Shown: positions 3,106-20,897 of the stretch, piece after piece
Position numbering within the stretch: position 1 is the stretch's first letter
How the letters are laid out: each line of letters starts with the position of its first letter
Virus record (IMG/VR): IMGVR_UViG_3300025764_000017
Coordinates: 1 to 26,228 of that record
Length of the DNA stretch: 26,228 nucleotides
DNA from: a virus
Reading direction: 5' to 3' (one strand)
Notes under the pieces: generated by a model
Databases searched by the model: none
Told to the model about the DNA's origin: nothing
The model's input: the letters and a program-made list of their open reading frames with translations, nothing else
Made by a program: the position numbers and the translations under genes

Positions 3106-4988
3106 TTCGGAGCCACCGGCTGGCTACTCATCCCGCCTCCTGCCACCGCTCCATCAATGTAAGGATTTGCAACAGGAGGTGCTTTGGTAGAAATATTCTG
3201 GTTACCCGTCCCACCGTTCGGTCCCATCATATTCGCGGCAGCAACCGCTTGTGCTTCTGGAAGCATCTGTGAAATCGGGATACCTATGATATCGGTCATG
3301 AGTTTCTGCACCTGTTGGAAGCTAAGCAACGCTCTAGGTTGTCCTGTTTGTTCATCCGGCAACATCATCTTAGACAACGATATAACAATATTCAATAGAG
3401 CCGCTTTCGATGTTTCGACTCCTTCTCCAATACTCACCTGTATGTCAAATTCTGCTTTTCGAGTCTGAGGTTTCCCGCCCTTCGACTCCAACTGCATAAA
3501 CTGTGGAACTGGTTTCATGGGGTTTAATGCTTTCCACTGATTCGTGTAATTCGTATCGCTTGGCACCATAGCGGGAACGCTCTTCAAGTGACGTGCATCT
3601 ACCCATTCGATTTCGTCTGACTCTTCTGTGATTCTGATCGCTTTACCGGCTGGCCAGAATTCCATCATTAAGCCAAGCATATACATCGTCGCATCCGCTA
3701 TGGCTTCTGAGATATCCGCTTTCTTATCAGCAACACCCATACCGCCCTGCTGTAACTGAGCGCCTGTTTGCGTGGCTGTGATCTCTCTGCTTGGTGCAGA
3801 ACCCATCATTAAATCTGAGAAGCGTGTAATTCTCTGCACTTCGACCAGAATTAAACTAATCAGTGTGAACACAACCTGGTTGATTCCCTGCCCCTGCACT
3901 GTGCGAAGATTCTGATTCGGGTCCATCATAAGTATCGGGTGAGAAGGGTCTCCGTCCAACTGTTCAGGGTCTAATCCCGCATTCGGGTCAACGTATCTTT
4001 CGGCCTGTGCTGAATACTTCGCCGCAATAACACATTCATCCCAAAGATTATTCAGTAGTATCTGCAATTTTACAAGCAGTTTACCATCACCGAAACGATG
4101 GAATTTCCCTTCTCTTGGATATAAGCCAAAAAAGAAGAAGGGATATTTATTATCAACGTGTTCGTAGAATGGTTTCGAAGGATCGGATTCTTTCAGCAGA
4201 ATACCGCATTCGGAAATATCAAGGCGCTGCAAATTACCCTCTTCGTTATTCTTCGTCCACACATGCAGTTTAGTGAAGCTATCTTTATCGTCTATGGTAT
4301 TATTATCCGCAAAGTCACCGGAGATATTACCCAAAGAAACAGCATCCGCAATCTCATCTCCATATTCTTTACGTGCAGACAGTATTGAGAACGAACCAAT
4401 CTCTTCTATGATATACTCTGCTTTTTCTACATCCAGAAGATTTTTAACCTTGCCGTCAACGAACACCCTATTGATCTGAGGTGTTCTCCAATCGGGCAAT
4501 CCGAATCCATCCAGAGCATCGGCATCCCAACCAATAAAGAAACAGCCATTACCAAAAAGCAAATAGCGACGAACTCCCTGCTTTATTTTACTTTTAATCT
4601 TGATTTTGCGATAAACGAAGTCAACTAGTATCTGCCCTGTGTGAGCAAATTTCTGGTCAGAGAATCCTTCACCCTTTACCGAAGCAGAAATATTCTTATC
4701 ACTCATCGCCGCGGTCTGCCCTTCAATCACAGGAAGAATAATTGGGTCAAAGCTATTCGGGTCTTTCTCGTTTTTAATAACACGTTCAGAAGCGTATAAC
4801 TTTTCAATCTCTTCCCATTCCTCTAAATCGGATTGCATTTCCATCTTTTTCTGGTTGTACCTATTGATATAGAATTCCGCACGCTCTATTTCCGATTTGG
4901 TGTTTATCGAATCTCTGTTGACACTGAACGCCGATTTCTGAGCATATTTATCTTCATAAATTTTCGGACCATTTTTATATTCAGCCAA
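3102..4988 (-). CDS. Portal protein
   Basis: 628 residues. The start is TTG at 4988 with SD GGGGGTG 6 nt upstream. The portal forms the dodecameric ring at the capsid vertex through which DNA is packaged and ejected. Support: length and all-alpha plus beta-wing character typical of large portals; an N-terminal helical clip/stem region; PSREITATQTGAQLQQG in the stem/crown region, reminiscent of P22-like portals (SxxEITAT-type motif); and position just after the terminase. The C-terminus is rich in Gly/Pro/Ala and disordered. The assignment is by overall pattern and gene order. Confidence 0.85.
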   Translation of the reverse strand: MAEYKNGPKIYEDKYAQKSAFSVNRDSINTKSEIERAEFYINRYNQKKMEMQSDLEEWEEIEKLYASERVIKNEKDPNSFDPIILPVIEGQTAAMSDKNISASVKGEGFSDQKFAHTGQILVDFVYRKIKIKSKIKQGVRRYLLFGNGCFFIGWDADALDGFGLPDWRTPQINRVFVDGKVKNLLDVEKAEYIIEEIGSFSILSARKEYGDEIADAVSLGNISGDFADNNTIDDKDSFTKLHVWTKNNEEGNLQRLDISECGILLKESDPSKPFYEHVDNKYPFFFFGLYPREGKFHRFGDGKLLVKLQILLNNLWDECVIAAKYSAQAERYVDPNAGLDPEQLDGDPSHPILMMDPNQNLRTVQGQGINQVVFTLISLILVEVQRITRFSDLMMGSAPSREITATQTGAQLQQGGMGVADKKADISEAIADATMYMLGLMMEFWPAGKAIRITEESDEIEWVDARHLKSVPAMVPSDTNYTNQWKALNPMKPVPQFMQLESKGGKPQTRKAEFDIQVSIGEGVETSKAALLNIVISLSKMMLPDEQTGQPRALLSFQQVQKLMTDIIGIPISQMLPEAQAVAAANMMGPNGGTGNQNISTKAPPVANPYIDGAVAGGGMSSQPVAPK

Positions 4989-5017
4989 TCATAACACCCC
5001 CATTCACTATTTAACAT

Positions 5018-5046
5018 ATTATACCATAGTTAAACCATATCGCACC
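5018..5046 (-). promoter_or_regulatory. Possible extended -10 promoter before the portal gene
   Basis: On the minus strand, TATAAT (5023 to 5018) is preceded by TGG, giving an extended -10. The sequence 17 nt upstream (GGTGCG) is a weak -35. It lies in the 76 nt gap before the portal gene, so portal and head genes could be boosted separately from the terminase transcript. Confidence 0.45.
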
Positions 5047-5064
5047 AATTATTTTTTCTTCGCG

Positions 5065-5244
5065 TTACTTAGACTTCTTCGGCTTTCTGGTTTCATAATT
5101 ATACATTCTCGTATCCGGATCATAGAACGGTGAATCGTCCGTGTCGTATCGCTTAACTATCGGTTCACTGCTCAACTCGATCAACTTATCCACACTCTGC
5201 TGCAATTTATCTACCTTTTTTACCAGTTCTTCAATTCCAAACAT
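5065..5244 (-). CDS. Small coiled-coil protein between TerL and portal
   Basis: 59 residues from the ATG at 5244 (MFGIEELVKKVDKLQQ). GGGAGGTG lies 7-8 nt upstream, and the ATG shares one base with the TerL stop (TAATG). An in-frame ATG 12 codons earlier has no SD. The first ~30 residues show a heptad pattern (VKKVDKLQQSVDKLIEL), then an acidic/aromatic segment and a basic KPKKSK end. No family is recognised; translational coupling to TerL suggests a packaging or portal accessory. Confidence 0.65.
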   Translation of the reverse strand: MFGIEELVKKVDKLQQSVDKLIELSSEPIVKRYDTDDSPFYDPDTRMYNYETRKPKKSK

Positions 5245-7967
5245 TATTTTACACCTCCCGCCGTCTCCGTTTTCTCCCACGACTTCTGCATCGTTTTCAT
5301 AAACTCCTTGATCTCATACGGTTTATAGCCACGGTCCCGAAGTTCTTCTTCTGAGTACCAACCAACCGGTGCTTTCTTCTTACCAGGTCTTACCGTCAAT
5401 AGCTTCATATATGCGGCTAAGCCAGTCGTTCCGTCGGGAGCATCATCGTGCTTATTATGCCCCATTCTGACATACGACGTTAACCATCTCATATAATTAT
5501 CGTAATCACTTCCGGGTGCATAGTCGCTTCTGAAATAAAAATTACTTTTAATATACCCGGCTCCCATCAGTATGCGTGTTTCTTTATTCGAACCCTCCGG
5601 TTCAAATGCCACTCCGCACGTCGACTTCCCTTTTATCAACTTACCAACATTCAACGCGAACCCCTTGCCGCCTGAGTTCGATTCAATTTTCATCAGTTCG
5701 CACCCTGTGTCTATAATCTGCTGCGCCACGAGCGGCTCCGTTACCTCTATCGGGTCCTGCGTGAACACGACATCCGTTACATACGTAAATTCTCCGATCT
5801 TCTTTCCAACCGGTGAACACAGGAAGTCCGTTCCTTCATCCGCCGTGTCGGTGAAACCTACCACGGCATCTATCCTTTTTCCATCGATCTCCTTCAGCGT
5901 AAACCGCTTCAGCTCTTCCACCGGGAACAGCAGTCCCTTACTCTCTATCGGGTTCTGCATATATTCCGCTTCCCAGATAAACTCTTCCGTAATATCCTTG
6001 ATAGCCAGATATTCTTCCGTTGTGTGTATCTCTTCGCAGAACGACTTCCCGTTTATCATCGCCGGTATAATTATTACCACCGTGTCATCGGCACCCTCGA
6101 CCCGGTATACGAACGGTTCTATCTCTATCAGCCTTCTCCCTTCGGTCAATCTGCCTATTGGATCCTTCCTGCTCCACCGCGTCGCTACGTGCAACTCAGC
6201 ACACCCCGACTCCAACCGCGACATATGCGTCGATGTGTACCAGTTCCACGTCGAATTTGATGTGACTTCTGACAGCGCAGCTTCTATGTTTTTAACTGGA
6301 TCATCCAAGGTAGCACAGTTGTGTACTAGTAAATCACTAGCAAAGAAGTTAGTATCTCTATCTACTTGAATATCGTATACTGGAATTGATCCATATATTC
6401 TTTTAATTCCTGTGATAACGTCTTGTGTGATTTGTGGTGTATCGAATGACATGTTTTGCAAAGAGTTATTAAATTGCTCGCAACATTGCTTTTGGGGTTC
6501 TCGTCTAAATGGTGAATCAATAACATTTTTTGTGAACCACATAAAGCACATTTCCAATCGTCTCTGTCCTTTATTGCAGATACCAGTTTCTTGTTTAACT
6601 TTGACCTTGCATCCGAATCTTGAAAGTTTGGGTTCACATTCCCCTCGATCTCTTTTGAGTGACCTAATTCCGCGCAAAATCTTGAGCAGTATGTTGTTGT
6701 CGATTGCCTTGGTCTGAATATTTTCCCACATATTGGACACGTTATGTCCGGCAATTTCCTTGTGGTTTGCGGAACAGGCTTTTTGGGATTCTCTATATAG
6801 TATTTCTTTATTGCCACTTGTCTGCACTCTGCTGAACAATATTTTAAATGTCTGTCCGAAACTTCTGCCCCACAGATTTGACAATAATGCTTTGCTTTTG
6901 TCTTTCTGGAATAATCCTTTTGAGCGCACTCCATTGAACAGTATGTCAGGGTAACACCCATTTTCAATGTTTTTCTGTGAACCGACTCTGGACGTTTGAA
7001 TTCCTTGTGGCAATACGCACATGTTAGGTCTATATAGTTTTTCCCCCTGCCGTAATAGACCTGCTTCGATATATGCTTTTCCGTTCCACACTCTGTGATT
7101 TTCTGTGCATCTAAGCACTCTTCCTGACTCTGTTGTGATTTCAATGATTTCATTAGATATAATCCTCCTTGCGTCGAGTATTTTGTTATATCTAATTATA
7201 TCATGTTTATGATCGTATGACAAGACTTGAATGCAATCTTCTTGCCAACTTTGAAATATTTTTTCTATTGGCATAATACCGTAGTTGGTGCATACCATTT
7301 CCCCCGCCGGTAAACACCTTTTGCATCCCTTACCCAGTATCGAACCCCCAACACCTGCACAGAAATACGTCGAATCCCTTGCCTTCGTTATCGCCCAGTC
7401 GTTTATCGACGTTCTGTCCTGCTTCATCCTGACTTCCGGGAACACCTTCAAATACCTTGGCTTCTGTATCATATCCCTTATATCATAGCTGAACTTCTCC
7501 GCCAATTCCGCCGCGTATGAATTTCTCATACTCGACTCTTCAGGGTATTTACCGATCAGCCACGCGTGCAGCAACGATACCGTATAACTTTTACCTGCCC
7601 GCGGTGCTTCCGACATCAGCAGTTTCATTATCTTTTTCTCTGCCAGCATCTGCATATACTTCGCTTGCAGTTTCAAATGCCATTTGCCTTCTGTGAAGAA
7701 ACCCGGACTGTCTGCCGTGGGGCCATCCATATATACACAGAACGCATAGAAATCTTCCCGCGCCTTCAGCGGCAGGTATATCTCCATCTTCTCCGCTTCT
7801 TCTATCTTTATCTTCTCTAACGCCGCAAGTATCTCGATCTTGCGTTTTATTATCGCTGCTCTTCTTAATTCAGGCGCTCTCCGCTCTTCTTCTGCGATGC
7901 GTTCAGCCTCCAAGACAGCACGTGCCTCTGCACGAGCTAATACTATCTTTTCGTTCACAGGCACCAC
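5244..7967 (-). CDS. terL: Terminase large subunit containing an intein
   Basis: The 907-codon precursor is the packaging motor ATPase and nuclease. Residues 1-217 and 551-907 form the 574-residue extein, a normal TerL size. Walker A-like APRAGKS is at 121-127, and GVGGSILGKG at 205-214 precedes the Walker B region (TLDDPVKN) just after the splice junction. The C-terminal RNase H-like nuclease has acidic candidates in GFTDTADEGTD, IESNSGG and HDDAPDG. The intein occupies residues 218-550. Starts are GTG: codons at 7967, 7964 and 7958 all follow AGGAGG (7974-7969), and spacing makes 7964 or 7958 at least as likely as 7967. The gene lies 5 nt after the methyltransferase stop. Confidence 0.92.
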   Translation of the reverse strand: MVPVNEKIVLARAEARAVLEAERIAEEERRAPELRRAAIIKRKIEILAALEKIKIEEAEKMEIYLPLKAREDFYAFCVYMDGPTADSPGFFTEGKWHLKLQAKYMQMLAEKKIMKLLMSEAPRAGKSYTVSLLHAWLIGKYPEESSMRNSYAAELAEKFSYDIRDMIQKPRYLKVFPEVRMKQDRTSINDWAITKARDSTYFCAGVGGSILGKGCKRCLPAGEMVCTNYGIMPIEKIFQSWQEDCIQVLSYDHKHDIIRYNKILDARRIISNEIIEITTESGRVLRCTENHRVWNGKAYIEAGLLRQGEKLYRPNMCVLPQGIQTSRVGSQKNIENGCYPDILFNGVRSKGLFQKDKSKALLSNLWGRSFGQTFKILFSRVQTSGNKEILYRESQKACSANHKEIAGHNVSNMWENIQTKAIDNNILLKILRGIRSLKRDRGECEPKLSRFGCKVKVKQETGICNKGQRRLEMCFMWFTKNVIDSPFRREPQKQCCEQFNNSLQNMSFDTPQITQDVITGIKRIYGSIPVYDIQVDRDTNFFASDLLVHNCATLDDPVKNIEAALSEVTSNSTWNWYTSTHMSRLESGCAELHVATRWSRKDPIGRLTEGRRLIEIEPFVYRVEGADDTVVIIIPAMINGKSFCEEIHTTEEYLAIKDITEEFIWEAEYMQNPIESKGLLFPVEELKRFTLKEIDGKRIDAVVGFTDTADEGTDFLCSPVGKKIGEFTYVTDVVFTQDPIEVTEPLVAQQIIDTGCELMKIESNSGGKGFALNVGKLIKGKSTCGVAFEPEGSNKETRILMGAGYIKSNFYFRSDYAPGSDYDNYMRWLTSYVRMGHNKHDDAPDGTTGLAAYMKLLTVRPGKKKAPVGWYSEEELRDRGYKPYEIKEFMKTMQKSWEKTETAGGVK
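6318..7316 (-). other. Intein in TerL (333 residues)
   Basis: A protein-splicing element with all key residues visible. It starts at Cys1 (codon 7316-7314, block A CLPAGEMVCT). Block B is GRVLRCTENHRVW with Thr71 and His74. Block F is VYDIQVDRDTNFFA, and block G is LLVHN with His332-Asn333, followed by Cys+1 of the extein. Removing it joins GKGCKR to CATLDDP, restoring a normal terminase ATPase core at the Walker B site. Between the splicing blocks the in-frame sequence (about residues 100-300) shows no LAGLIDADG or HNH motif and looks like an off-frame translation; a different frame of the same strand encodes an HNH protein there. Confidence 0.93.
6362..7153 (-). CDS. HNH homing endonuclease nested out of frame inside the intein
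   Basis: 263 residues on the same strand as TerL but in the +1 frame relative to it. It has its own SD, AAGGAGG at 7170-7164, 10 nt before the ATG. Three similar zinc modules of the form CxxC...YCSxxC occur at C45/C48/C72/C76, C91/C94/C106/C110 and C139/C142/C156/C160. A complete HNH nuclease follows: CALC at 202-205, HHLDENP at 214-220, NL at 227, and CKTCHSIHH at 232-240. It presumably cuts intein-less terL alleles to spread the element. The start lies ahead of intein block B and the stop falls inside block F, so 264 intein codons are dual-coded. Intact domains argue that this frame is a real protein. Confidence 0.88.
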   Translation of the reverse strand: MKSLKSQQSQEECLDAQKITECGTEKHISKQVYYGRGKNYIDLTCAYCHKEFKRPESVHRKTLKMGVTLTYCSMECAQKDYSRKTKAKHYCQICGAEVSDRHLKYCSAECRQVAIKKYYIENPKKPVPQTTRKLPDITCPICGKIFRPRQSTTTYCSRFCAELGHSKEIEGNVNPNFQDSDARSKLNKKLVSAIKDRDDWKCALCGSQKMLLIHHLDENPKSNVASNLITLCKTCHSIHHKSHKTLSQELKEYMDQFQYTIFK

Positions 7968-7972
7968 CCCTC

Positions 7973-8716
7973 CTACCCAAGTATAATTATTCCATTCACT
8001 TCTGCAATCCGCTTCTCTGCTATCTCGAAATAATTTTTATCCAACTCAAAACCAATGAAGTTTCGCCCCGTGTTGATGCAAGCGATTGCCGTGGTTCCAC
8101 TTCCCATACAGTTATCTAAGACCGAATCGCCCTCGTTGGTGTATGTTCGTATCAAGTATTCGAATAGTGCTGCTGGCTTTTGGGTAGGGTGAAGTGTCCT
8201 TTCTACCTTATCAAATTTCAAATAAGTTTTTGGGTATCTATATCCATTGTTTATGTTATTAGTGGTTTTGTTCATTTTCCCATATGTTCCCTTATTTGTT
8301 GAATCTCTTGAGCAGTTTAGTCTTTGATAAGGTTCACCTTTTTCTTTCTGCGGATTATAAATAGTTTTCTTTTTGCAAAAAACCAAAACACTTTCGTGAC
8401 AAGCAAGTGGCATAATTTTTGCATTTAGATGACCCGTCCCTCTATTCTTAATCCATATCCACTCATACTTAAACATCTTGATGTTACTCATAACCAACGC
8501 ACTTGTAAATGGCTGACTTGCTGTCAACACTATTGCCCCGTTATCTTTTATAATTCTCTTATACTGTTCCCAAAGCGGTTCAAAAGGAATTATCGCATCC
8601 CATTTGCAATTCGTAGTTCCATAGGGTAAGTCACACAGAATCATATCAACGCTTTTATTAGGGATTCGCTTCATACCATCCAGACAGTCCTCATTATATA
8701 TCCTGTTTATTTCCAC
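7973..8716 (-). CDS. Orphan DNA methyltransferase (beta-class, probably N6-adenine)
   Basis: 247 residues, GTG start with GGAGG 10 nt upstream. The catalytic motif IV is DLPYGTT (D29-Y32), and the AdoMet-binding motif I is DNCMGSGTT (from D201). Motif IV before motif I defines the beta group of amino-methyltransferases; DLPYGTT is typical of phage adenine methyltransferases. No restriction enzyme is adjacent, so it probably protects phage DNA from host cleavage or marks it. It sits between the small and large terminase genes and ends 5 nt before TerL. Its C-terminus resembles the second methyltransferase at 20100. Confidence 0.9.
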   Translation of the reverse strand: MEINRIYNEDCLDGMKRIPNKSVDMILCDLPYGTTNCKWDAIIPFEPLWEQYKRIIKDNGAIVLTASQPFTSALVMSNIKMFKYEWIWIKNRGTGHLNAKIMPLACHESVLVFCKKKTIYNPQKEKGEPYQRLNCSRDSTNKGTYGKMNKTTNNINNGYRYPKTYLKFDKVERTLHPTQKPAALFEYLIRTYTNEGDSVLDNCMGSGTTAIACINTGRNFIGFELDKNYFEIAEKRIAEVNGIIILG

Positions 8717-8963
8717 AGGTGTCGTGCCTCCCTCAGCGTAAATTATTACTCCAGAATTTTATAAATTTTTTTCAGATTTTATGGGCGTTGTTCACATACT
8801 CTATATAGCAGCATGCCACCCGGCAACCCGGCCCACCCCCACCCCCTAGGGCGTGCAACCTTGGCGCTTGCAGCGCATCAGACTGTGCCAATGCTTAGCA
8901 AACAAACAATAAATAAACATGACAAGCAAGGTAAGCATAGCATAGGCAGGCAGCCTCGATCAT

Positions 8964-15718: not shown

Positions 15719-15721
15719 GTG

Positions 15722-16351
15722 ATGGGAGCGTTCAAAGATTTAACCGGTCAACGATTTGGAAGGCTGGTTGTTATCGAATGTGTTGGGCATCGAGGAGAAA
15801 AGACATTATGGGAATGTAAGTGTGATTGTGGGGAAGATACCAAAGTTATTTCACATAGTTTGATTGGGGGCGATACGAAAAGTTGTGGGTGTTATAGTAA
15901 AGAAAGATCAACCACACATGGGATGCGCGGAACCAAAATATATAGCGTTTGGAAAGACATGAAAGGACGTTGTAATAATCCAAATGACAAGGGATATCAA
16001 GATTATGGTGGGCGCGGAATTACCGTCTGTGATGGATGGCTTGAATTTATACATTTCTATAATTGGGCGATGGCAAACGGATATAGCAACGGTCTAACTA
16101 TAGACCGGGTAGACAATAATTCCGGATATTCACCGGAAAACTGTAGATGGTCTACGTGGAAAGAGCAAGAGAATAACAAAAGAAGTAATGTTTGGATTAA
16201 ATATCAAGGAGAAAGGAAGACAATGGCACAATGGGCCGACACTTGTGGAATATCACGTGGTTGCCTTCACCAGAGAATTAAAGCCGGTTGGACTATTGAA
16301 AAAGCATTCAACACGCCAACCAGAATTTATGAAAACGAGAAAGGGGCATAG
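15722..16351 (+). CDS. Free-standing HNH/AP2-type endonuclease
   Basis: 209 residues. I choose the ATG at 15722 (8 nt from GGTGG) over the GTG just before it. The N-terminal part has a zinc-ribbon-like CKCDCG...SCGC. The centre has the pattern YGGRGITVCDGW, then TIDRVDNNSGYSPENCRWST, well known from phage HNH endonucleases with AP2-like DNA-binding parts. The C-terminus (TMAQWADTCGISRGCLHQRI) resembles a DNA-binding NUMOD-type helix-turn-helix. Probably a mobile homing-type nuclease inserted between regulator and ATPase. Confidence 0.85.
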   Translation: MGAFKDLTGQRFGRLVVIECVGHRGEKTLWECKCDCGEDTKVISHSLIGGDTKSCGCYSKERSTTHGMRGTKIYSVWKDMKGRCNNPNDKGYQDYGGRGITVCDGWLEFIHFYNWAMANGYSNGLTIDRVDNNSGYSPENCRWSTWKEQENNKRSNVWIKYQGERKTMAQWADTCGISRGCLHQRIKAGWTIEKAFNTPTRIYENEKGA

Positions 16352-20099: not shown

Positions 20100-20897
20100 A
20101 TGCAATTAAACGAAATATATAATATGGATTGCATTGAAGGAATGAAACTGCTCGATGCAAACAGCATTGACCTCACCGTAACGTCTCCACCTTATGACAA
20201 TCTTAGAAGTTACAACAACTCTTCGACTTGGAACTTTGACATATTTAAACAAGTTGCAGAAGGTTTATGGAGAGTAACGAAACAAGGCGGCGTAGTTGTT
20301 TGGGTTGTAGGTGATGCTACGATTGACGGCAGCGAAACAGGAACTTCGTTTCGGCAAGCATTGTATTTCAAGGAAATTGGGTTCAATTTGCATGACACGA
20401 TGATATGGAATAAGGGTTCTTCTCCTTTTCAACATAAAAATAGGTATATTCAATGTTTCGAATATATGTTTATTTTTACTAAAAGTGAAAAGAAAATCGC
20501 CAATTTAATTTGTGACCGAAAGAATATATGGGGTGGAACACCAATTCACGGTACAGAAAGGCAAAACAATGGGATAACCAAAAATCTATCCACCATTCAA
20601 AAGTCTAAACAAGTGAAAGAATATGGTGTGAGATTAAATGTATGGGAGATACCACCTAATAAAAATAATGAAACGGGGCCTCCTGCTGTATTCCCTGAAC
20701 AGCTCGTCGCTGATCATATCCAATCATGGTCTAACGAGGATGATATAATTCTAGACCCCTTTATGGGTAGCGGAACAACGGCTTTAGCTTGCATAAACAC
20801 CGGAAGAGGTTATATAGGGTTTGAGATTGACAAGGAATATTATAAGATTGCAACAGAACGAATAGCAGAAGTCAAGAACCAGTTGAAACTATTTTAA
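20100..20897 (+). CDS. Orphan DNA methyltransferase (beta-class, N4-cytosine or N6-adenine)
   Basis: 265 residues, ATG with AAGGAGGGTG. Motif IV is TSPPYDN (S29-Y32) and motif I is DPFMGSGT (from D219); the order is beta-class. SPPY is typical of N4-cytosine enzymes but occurs in adenine enzymes too, so the target base is open. The end GFEIDKEYYKIATERIAEV resembles that of the methyltransferase at 7973. No nuclease partner; likely protects phage DNA. Confidence 0.9.
   Translation: MQLNEIYNMDCIEGMKLLDANSIDLTVTSPPYDNLRSYNNSSTWNFDIFKQVAEGLWRVTKQGGVVVWVVGDATIDGSETGTSFRQALYFKEIGFNLHDTMIWNKGSSPFQHKNRYIQCFEYMFIFTKSEKKIANLICDRKNIWGGTPIHGTERQNNGITKNLSTIQKSKQVKEYGVRLNVWEIPPNKNNETGPPAVFPEQLVADHIQSWSNEDDIILDPFMGSGTTALACINTGRGYIGFEIDKEYYKIATERIAEVKNQLKLF

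Follow-up and report, generated by a model that had tools for sequence, protein, structure and literature searches.

Mycobacteriophage TerL inteins splice and can contain an active in-frame endonuclease (Kelley et al., 2016, PMC5050341). Out-of-frame HNH genes have been described in mycobacteriophage methylase genes, as in ShiLan, where they are stated to occur without a splicing domain and without a ribosome-binding site (PMC11855218). The locus considered here lies in the viral contig IMGVR_UViG_3300025764_000017 of IMG/VR, analyzed over its positions 1 to 26,228 (26,228 nucleotides, the window), in which an intein interrupts terL and the same DNA, read in the +1 frame, encodes a predicted zinc-finger/HNH homing endonuclease. 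Very likely, this TerL intein splices in cis and its homing endonuclease is encoded by a gene of its own that overlaps it. The element probably also stands for a class of inteins that is old, widespread, and undescribed, with splicing and homing assigned to two proteins encoded by overlapping frames and with dual-coded Hint motifs.

The ShiLan arrangement resembles the TerL element in that a host gene remains open while a zinc-knuckle HNH gene occupies another of its frames, and the HNH proteins are distantly related: that of Gordonia phage Clown (L007), a relative of the window at this locus, matches those of Mantra and ShiLan with E 8e-7 to 2e-4. However, ShiLan has its HNH in +2 relative to a methylase, with no surrounding intein signal, whereas the TerL element has a full Hint intein around an HNH gene in the +1 frame of terL, with a Shine-Dalgarno (SD) sequence in the window. 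Judged by sequence relationship, this HNH family may have become nested out of frame more than once. Conventional TerL inteins (Kelley et al., PMC5050341; pCQ4) share with the element a site at a nucleotide-binding motif, an endonuclease between blocks B and F, and patchiness. On the other hand, their endonuclease belongs to the intein chain and shares its frame (LAGLIDADG-type in pCQ4), while the nested element has a separate endonuclease protein in another frame and an in-frame linker that is predicted to be disordered. No mention of nested frames was found in Kelley et al. (PMC5050341). The Streptomyces plasmid pCQ4 (NC_019307) encodes, at 454-2964, a TerL of the same family with a conventional intein at the P-loop (GK/ALALDTPI...IPTHN/S, slashes marking the junctions here and below); this intein has in-frame LAGLIDADG-like motifs, and the Walker B site of pCQ4 is intein-free.

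A third comparison is with the "fractured genes" that Dassa et al. reportedly described in 2009, in which the two halves of a split intein flank a free-standing homing endonuclease gene. Here too, splicing and endonuclease belong to different proteins of one locus, and the endonuclease gene lies between Hint halves. Fractured genes, however, comprise two open reading frames (ORFs) whose products trans-splice, whereas the nested element is a continuous intein ORF with an overlapping endonuclease gene. The window intein belongs to a single continuous 907-aa ORF and is not broken into two; a split intein is ruled out by this continuity. An apparent split intein was seen in the AAA-type ATPase of IMGVR_UViG_3300033153_007039 (3432-5427), with an N-half ORF (CMPKGTLIKT...), an HNH ORF (3926-4378) that overlaps this N-half by 4 nt, and a C-half ORF (4348-5427) ending ISHN/S. 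It resembles a fractured gene and could illustrate a possible fate of a nested intein once its frame closes. No description of a homing endonuclease gene in another frame of an intein was found in the openly licensed literature, which was the part searchable, and the closest published case is the out-of-frame ShiLan HNH, without splicing domain.

The window terL ORF has no internal stops, and TIGR01630 and PHROG 38 match its exteins in profile searches (coordinates are given in Table 1). The intein comprises residues 218-550 of this ORF (Cys218 to Asn550), followed by Cys551, and is inserted directly before the TerL Walker B motif (..CKR/C ATLDDPVK). Its assignment as an intein follows from profile matches in the intein frame (Pfam Intein_splicing, 4e-10; TIGR01445, 1.4e-8; TIGR01443, 3.5e-4) and from its splicing residues (C1, T71-x-x-H74, D315, H332-N333, and C+1), among which C1, T71, H74, D315, and N333 are unchanged across nine aligned inteins. 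Profile searches including Pfam, TIGR, and PHROG matched no endonuclease in the intein-frame linker, and in this respect the intein is not a bifunctional one. The intein encloses the entire HNH ORF, which is on the same strand and has an offset to terL of 814 nt (7967-7153), or 1 modulo 3. Its product contains several Cys-rich zinc knuckles and a C-terminal HNH motif (H214/H215, N227, C232xxCH236); H214, H215, N227, C232, C235, and H236 are invariant in the conserved columns of nine relatives, as in an HNH endonuclease. The gene starts at intein codon 55, ahead of block B (T71-H74), and its stop spans intein codons 318/319, within block F. Coordinates and profile matches thus agree with the initial annotation, made from the letters of the window, which had described a 263-codon zinc-finger/HNH gene in the +1 frame of a stop-free intein that keeps its splicing blocks, with AAGGAGG 10 nt before the ATG, a start before block B, and a stop inside block F.

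The same arrangement is found elsewhere. A tblastn search with the HNH protein led to the annotated terminase genes of Clown and of Synechococcus phage S-EIVl (L008), in both of which the HNH lies in +1 within an open TerL-intein frame. Further relatives come from IMG/VR (L010, L020, and seven contigs related to Streptomyces plasmids) and from PLSDB (the Streptomyces plasmids NZ_CP108353, NZ_CP134214, NZ_CP032230, and pCQ3, NC_013449). The nesting is carried by 16 loci, 15 of them distinct (L039 repeats L029), the window and 14 others, which span at least five divergent groups with a TerL identity between lineages of just about 26-43%. In all 16, intein-N and intein-C share one open ORF with the HNH in +1, and the insertion point is directly before the TerL Walker B (..C/..DDPxK). 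The proposal of the initial annotation that splicing and homing are divided between two proteins of overlapping coding is supported by the 14 further distinct loci, as far as functions can be deduced from them, and the closed intein frames or unconserved HNH genes that it had named as contrary evidence did not appear: each of the 14 has an open intein and an HNH of the same family in +1. The shared nesting and TerL site across such divergent loci therefore mark the arrangement as conserved, not accidental, and exclude indel artefacts. That the relation is +1 throughout, at a shared site, suggests that the arrangement arose once; the HNH gene was probably placed out of frame at the usual endonuclease position, its ORF being later extended into both Hint halves.

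Most other HNH matches in viral contigs were weak and unrelated, without a co-open frame bearing intein signals; one scan of genome contigs returned only a weak, unrelated HNH, and a Ruminococcus phage match (PV036441) was rejected as an unrelated Hint-containing protein. In the annotation of the four Streptomyces plasmids (L027-L030), a truncated HNH and a C-terminal TerL piece are listed as "hypothetical protein" and the full TerL-intein ORF is absent; intein-free relatives are labelled "terminase family protein".

Where the two genes overlap, stops are absent from the HNH and intein frames and number 23 in the third frame. When the synonymous codons of the HNH gene were permuted in 5000 shuffles, keeping HNH protein and codon usage, the window gave a mean of 12.3 intein-frame stops and was stop-free in 0/5000 (P<0.0002). 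The same bound holds for S-EIVl, L010, and L020, and the GC-rich loci gave P 0.0002-0.03. The intein frame is therefore held open by selection beyond HNH coding. By codon-usage likelihood, the intein and +1 frames of the window score alike.

Selection on each frame was read from ten Streptomyces-type alleles (76-86% DNA identity) compared site by site, in which every indel is a multiple of three. At terL codon positions 1/2/3, variability amounts to.067/.056/.428 for the N-extein and.158/.095/.415 for the intein ahead of the HNH start; it becomes.283/.198/.179 in the block-B overlap and.380/.176/.133 in the linker, is.100/.059/.079 in blocks F/G, and is.103/.068/.362 in the C-extein. The change point from terL-type to HNH-type substitution falls at codons 200-205 (bootstrap 5-95%), and an ATG at codon 202, homologous to that of the window (MDSSKS vs MKSLKS), is invariant in 10/10 alleles. 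The per-frame comparison that the initial annotation had proposed is clear in the linker. There, pN/pS is 2.0 when the intein frame is read and 0.27 when the HNH frame is read: this segment changes solely as HNH-coding DNA, and the HNH is under purifying selection in it. Blocks F/G are low at all three positions, as expected for dual coding, and their position 3 variability of 0.079 is below that of every equal-size extein window (minimum 0.246), although other sequence constraints near the junction may also contribute. S-EIVl and L010 form an independent replicate: the changes between them at intein positions 1/2/3 number 53/16/6 in the linker and 37/7/146 in the C-extein. Stop avoidance, frame-specific rates, and the block F/G constraint together indicate selection in both frames, as in overlapping genes. 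Accordingly, dual coding of the splicing segments, as first claimed, stands for the two ends of the overlap (about 45 + 24 intein codons), to which true dual constraint is limited. It does not extend to the 195-codon middle, which is constrained for the HNH, and where the intein reading is, by its predicted structure, disordered filler needing only openness. In one allele (L041), the HNH is interrupted by a stop and has lost a codon, while the intein frame is still open, which fits a decaying endonuclease.

Structure prediction with AlphaFold, run on the window intein with eight relatives, gives pLDDT mostly of 76-95 at intein residues 1-99 and 295-333, and of about 20-30 at residues 100-294. 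Foldseek matches of the intein are the Mtu RecA, NrdJ-1, and PhoCDC21 inteins (E 3e-6 to 8e-6; Mtu RecA 3e-6). A Hint fold formed from two halves, split by a 195-residue disordered linker, is thus predicted with confidence, and the DNA of the linker is the bulk of the HNH gene, read in the other frame. In the HNH model, a zinc-knuckle core at residues 40-165 is confident (blocks mostly 71-90), the beta-beta-alpha element at 211-241 is of moderate confidence, and residues 1-35 are disordered. From the pLDDT of both models, the HNH is therefore largely disordered or of low confidence where the intein is folded, and the reverse.

Table 1. Features of the terL locus in the window.
Feature	Position	Strand	Remarks
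terL CDS (extein-intein-extein precursor)	5244..7967	-	GTG start, 907 aa; TIGR01630, PHROG 38 TerL, Pfam Terminase RNaseH-like
Intein	6318..7316	-	333 aa, Cys1 ... His332-Asn333 / Cys+1; based on profiles, Hint fold and Foldseek
Hint N-terminal half, intein residues 1-99, blocks A + B	7020..7316	-	pLDDT 76-95
Block B, T71-E-N-H74	7095-7106	-	within Hint N-terminal half
Intein linker, residues 100-294	6435..7019	-	predicted disordered, pLDDT about 20-30; 0 intein-frame stops
Hint C-terminal half, residues 295-333, blocks F + G	6318..6434	-	ends VHN/C; pLDDT mostly 86-95
HNH homing-endonuclease gene (predicted)	6362..7153	-	263 aa, +1 frame; PHROG 1271, 5e-24
Shine-Dalgarno AAGGAGG	7164..7170	-	CCTCCTT on +; 10 nt upstream of HNH ATG, itself intein-coding
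5' dual-coded segment, Hint residues 55-99 over HNH N-terminus	7019..7153	-	AlphaFold and position-specific rates of relatives
3' dual-coded segment, Hint residues 295-318 (block F) over HNH C-terminus	6362..6434	-	AlphaFold; constraint at all positions in relatives

N6/N4 DNA methyltransferase genes occur at two other places in the window, directly upstream of terL (7973-8716, minus strand) and at 20100-20897 (plus strand). A 210-aa ORF at 15719-16351 (plus strand), which starts LTGQRFGRLVV and has a Cys-rich stretch, has no Pfam match; presumably it is similar to phage HNH/AP2 homing-type proteins.

The distribution of the element bears on its mobility. In PLSDB, 39 plasmids, nearly all from Streptomyces, carry related TerL DNA, and the nested intein is present in 4/39. 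In the TerL tree, eight inspected intein-free alleles interleave with occupied ones, with at least three changes on starred branches; this patchiness and these gains or losses would be consistent with a homing endonuclease gene. The nearest phage TerL found for the window, that of MT835752, is intein-free (43%).

According to the proposed mechanism, frame 0 of the terL mRNA would be translated into a TerL precursor, in which the Hint halves, tethered by the disordered linker of ~195 residues, would fold together so that the intein is excised and TerL ligated. A second ribosome would initiate at the SD/ATG inside the intein, a step for which the sequence gives strong support, and would read the same mRNA in +1 to produce the zinc-finger HNH protein. 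This protein would cut intein-free terL near the Walker B codons, and repair would copy in the whole element. The middle of the intein frame would experience essentially just selection against stops and frame-changing indels, and the dual-coded Hint blocks would coincide with the predicted flexible or low-confidence ends of the HNH protein.

Several observations weigh against a cis-splicing intein with an overlapping homing endonuclease gene. Splicing, HNH translation, cleavage, and homing are all inferred. Strong SDs are confined to the window and S-EIVl; in the Streptomyces group, AGGA precedes the HNH start by 12 nt, and the HNH starts are uncertain in Clown, L010, and L020. Leu, not His, precedes the terminal Asn in S-EIVl and L010, and the structural matches of the HNH are weak (E about 0.01; DotN, Cap5, and HNH-Cascade). 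The identity of intein or HNH between lineages is barely above that of the exteins; with extein, Hint, and HNH identities this similar, recent transfer between deep lineages is not supported. Lastly, an empty allele differing solely by the intein was not found among the inspected intein-free terL alleles, which have no Cys at +1 (GAH/L or similar) and so form no pair differing by the intein alone.

The lack of a clean empty site among these alleles, as well as the broken HNH of L041, would also suit an intein and an HNH that are both real, the HNH not being, or no longer being, a homing endonuclease here, for example a packaging-associated protein or a dead passenger. HNH proteins can indeed act with terminases, as is generally known and is discussed in PMC11855218. 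This explanation is unlikely in view of the purifying selection in the linker, the intact HNH and zinc-binding residues, the joint patchiness of intein and HNH at one site, and the intein setting itself. Programmed +1 frameshifting, in which ribosomes would leave the intein frame and make an intein-N/HNH fusion, is a very improbable source of the HNH. Every case has the same +1 relation, as a frameshift origin would produce, and in some relatives neither an SD nor a standard start is obvious at the corresponding position; yet the window has its SD at a spacing of 10 nt from an ATG, the HNH frame is open for just 14 codons upstream of it, and HNH-type substitutions begin at the invariant ATG in the ten alleles. 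Phage group I introns commonly carry HNH ORFs, and one could suppose that such an intron, or another RNA element, bears the HNH ORF here, the intein-like frame being incidental or decayed. However, Rfam gave no match over 5000-8800 at E up to 1, the splicing motifs and Hint fold are conserved, and stops are actively avoided in the intein frame, all of which leaves this account with hardly any likelihood. Sequencing or assembly indels that make a conventional in-frame HNH intein look like two separate frames, a concern of the initial annotation and conceivable in an uncultured metagenomic contig, can be dismissed almost completely, being refuted by the same arrangement in isolate phages and complete plasmids, by indels in multiples of three in the ten alleles, by an intein frame that is stop-free against strong expectation, and by HNH ends that both reach well into the Hint blocks.

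Inteins are usually described as one chain with splicing and endonuclease domains, and a separate endonuclease in an overlapping frame appears here as a stable alternative. An uncoupled nuclease can be expressed and can decay independently, as in L041, at the cost to the intein of an open frame and a floppy linker. The locus is also a natural and comparatively tractable gene overlap, in which frame-specific selection can be read codon by codon. Annotation misses such loci, as in the four Streptomyces plasmids; if the proposed organization is true, large inteins listed without an endonuclease may hide one in another frame. Closure of the intein frame would then yield a split intein and a free-standing nuclease, and in-frame inteins, ShiLan-type hidden HNHs, and fractured split-intein loci would be joined in one testable scheme.
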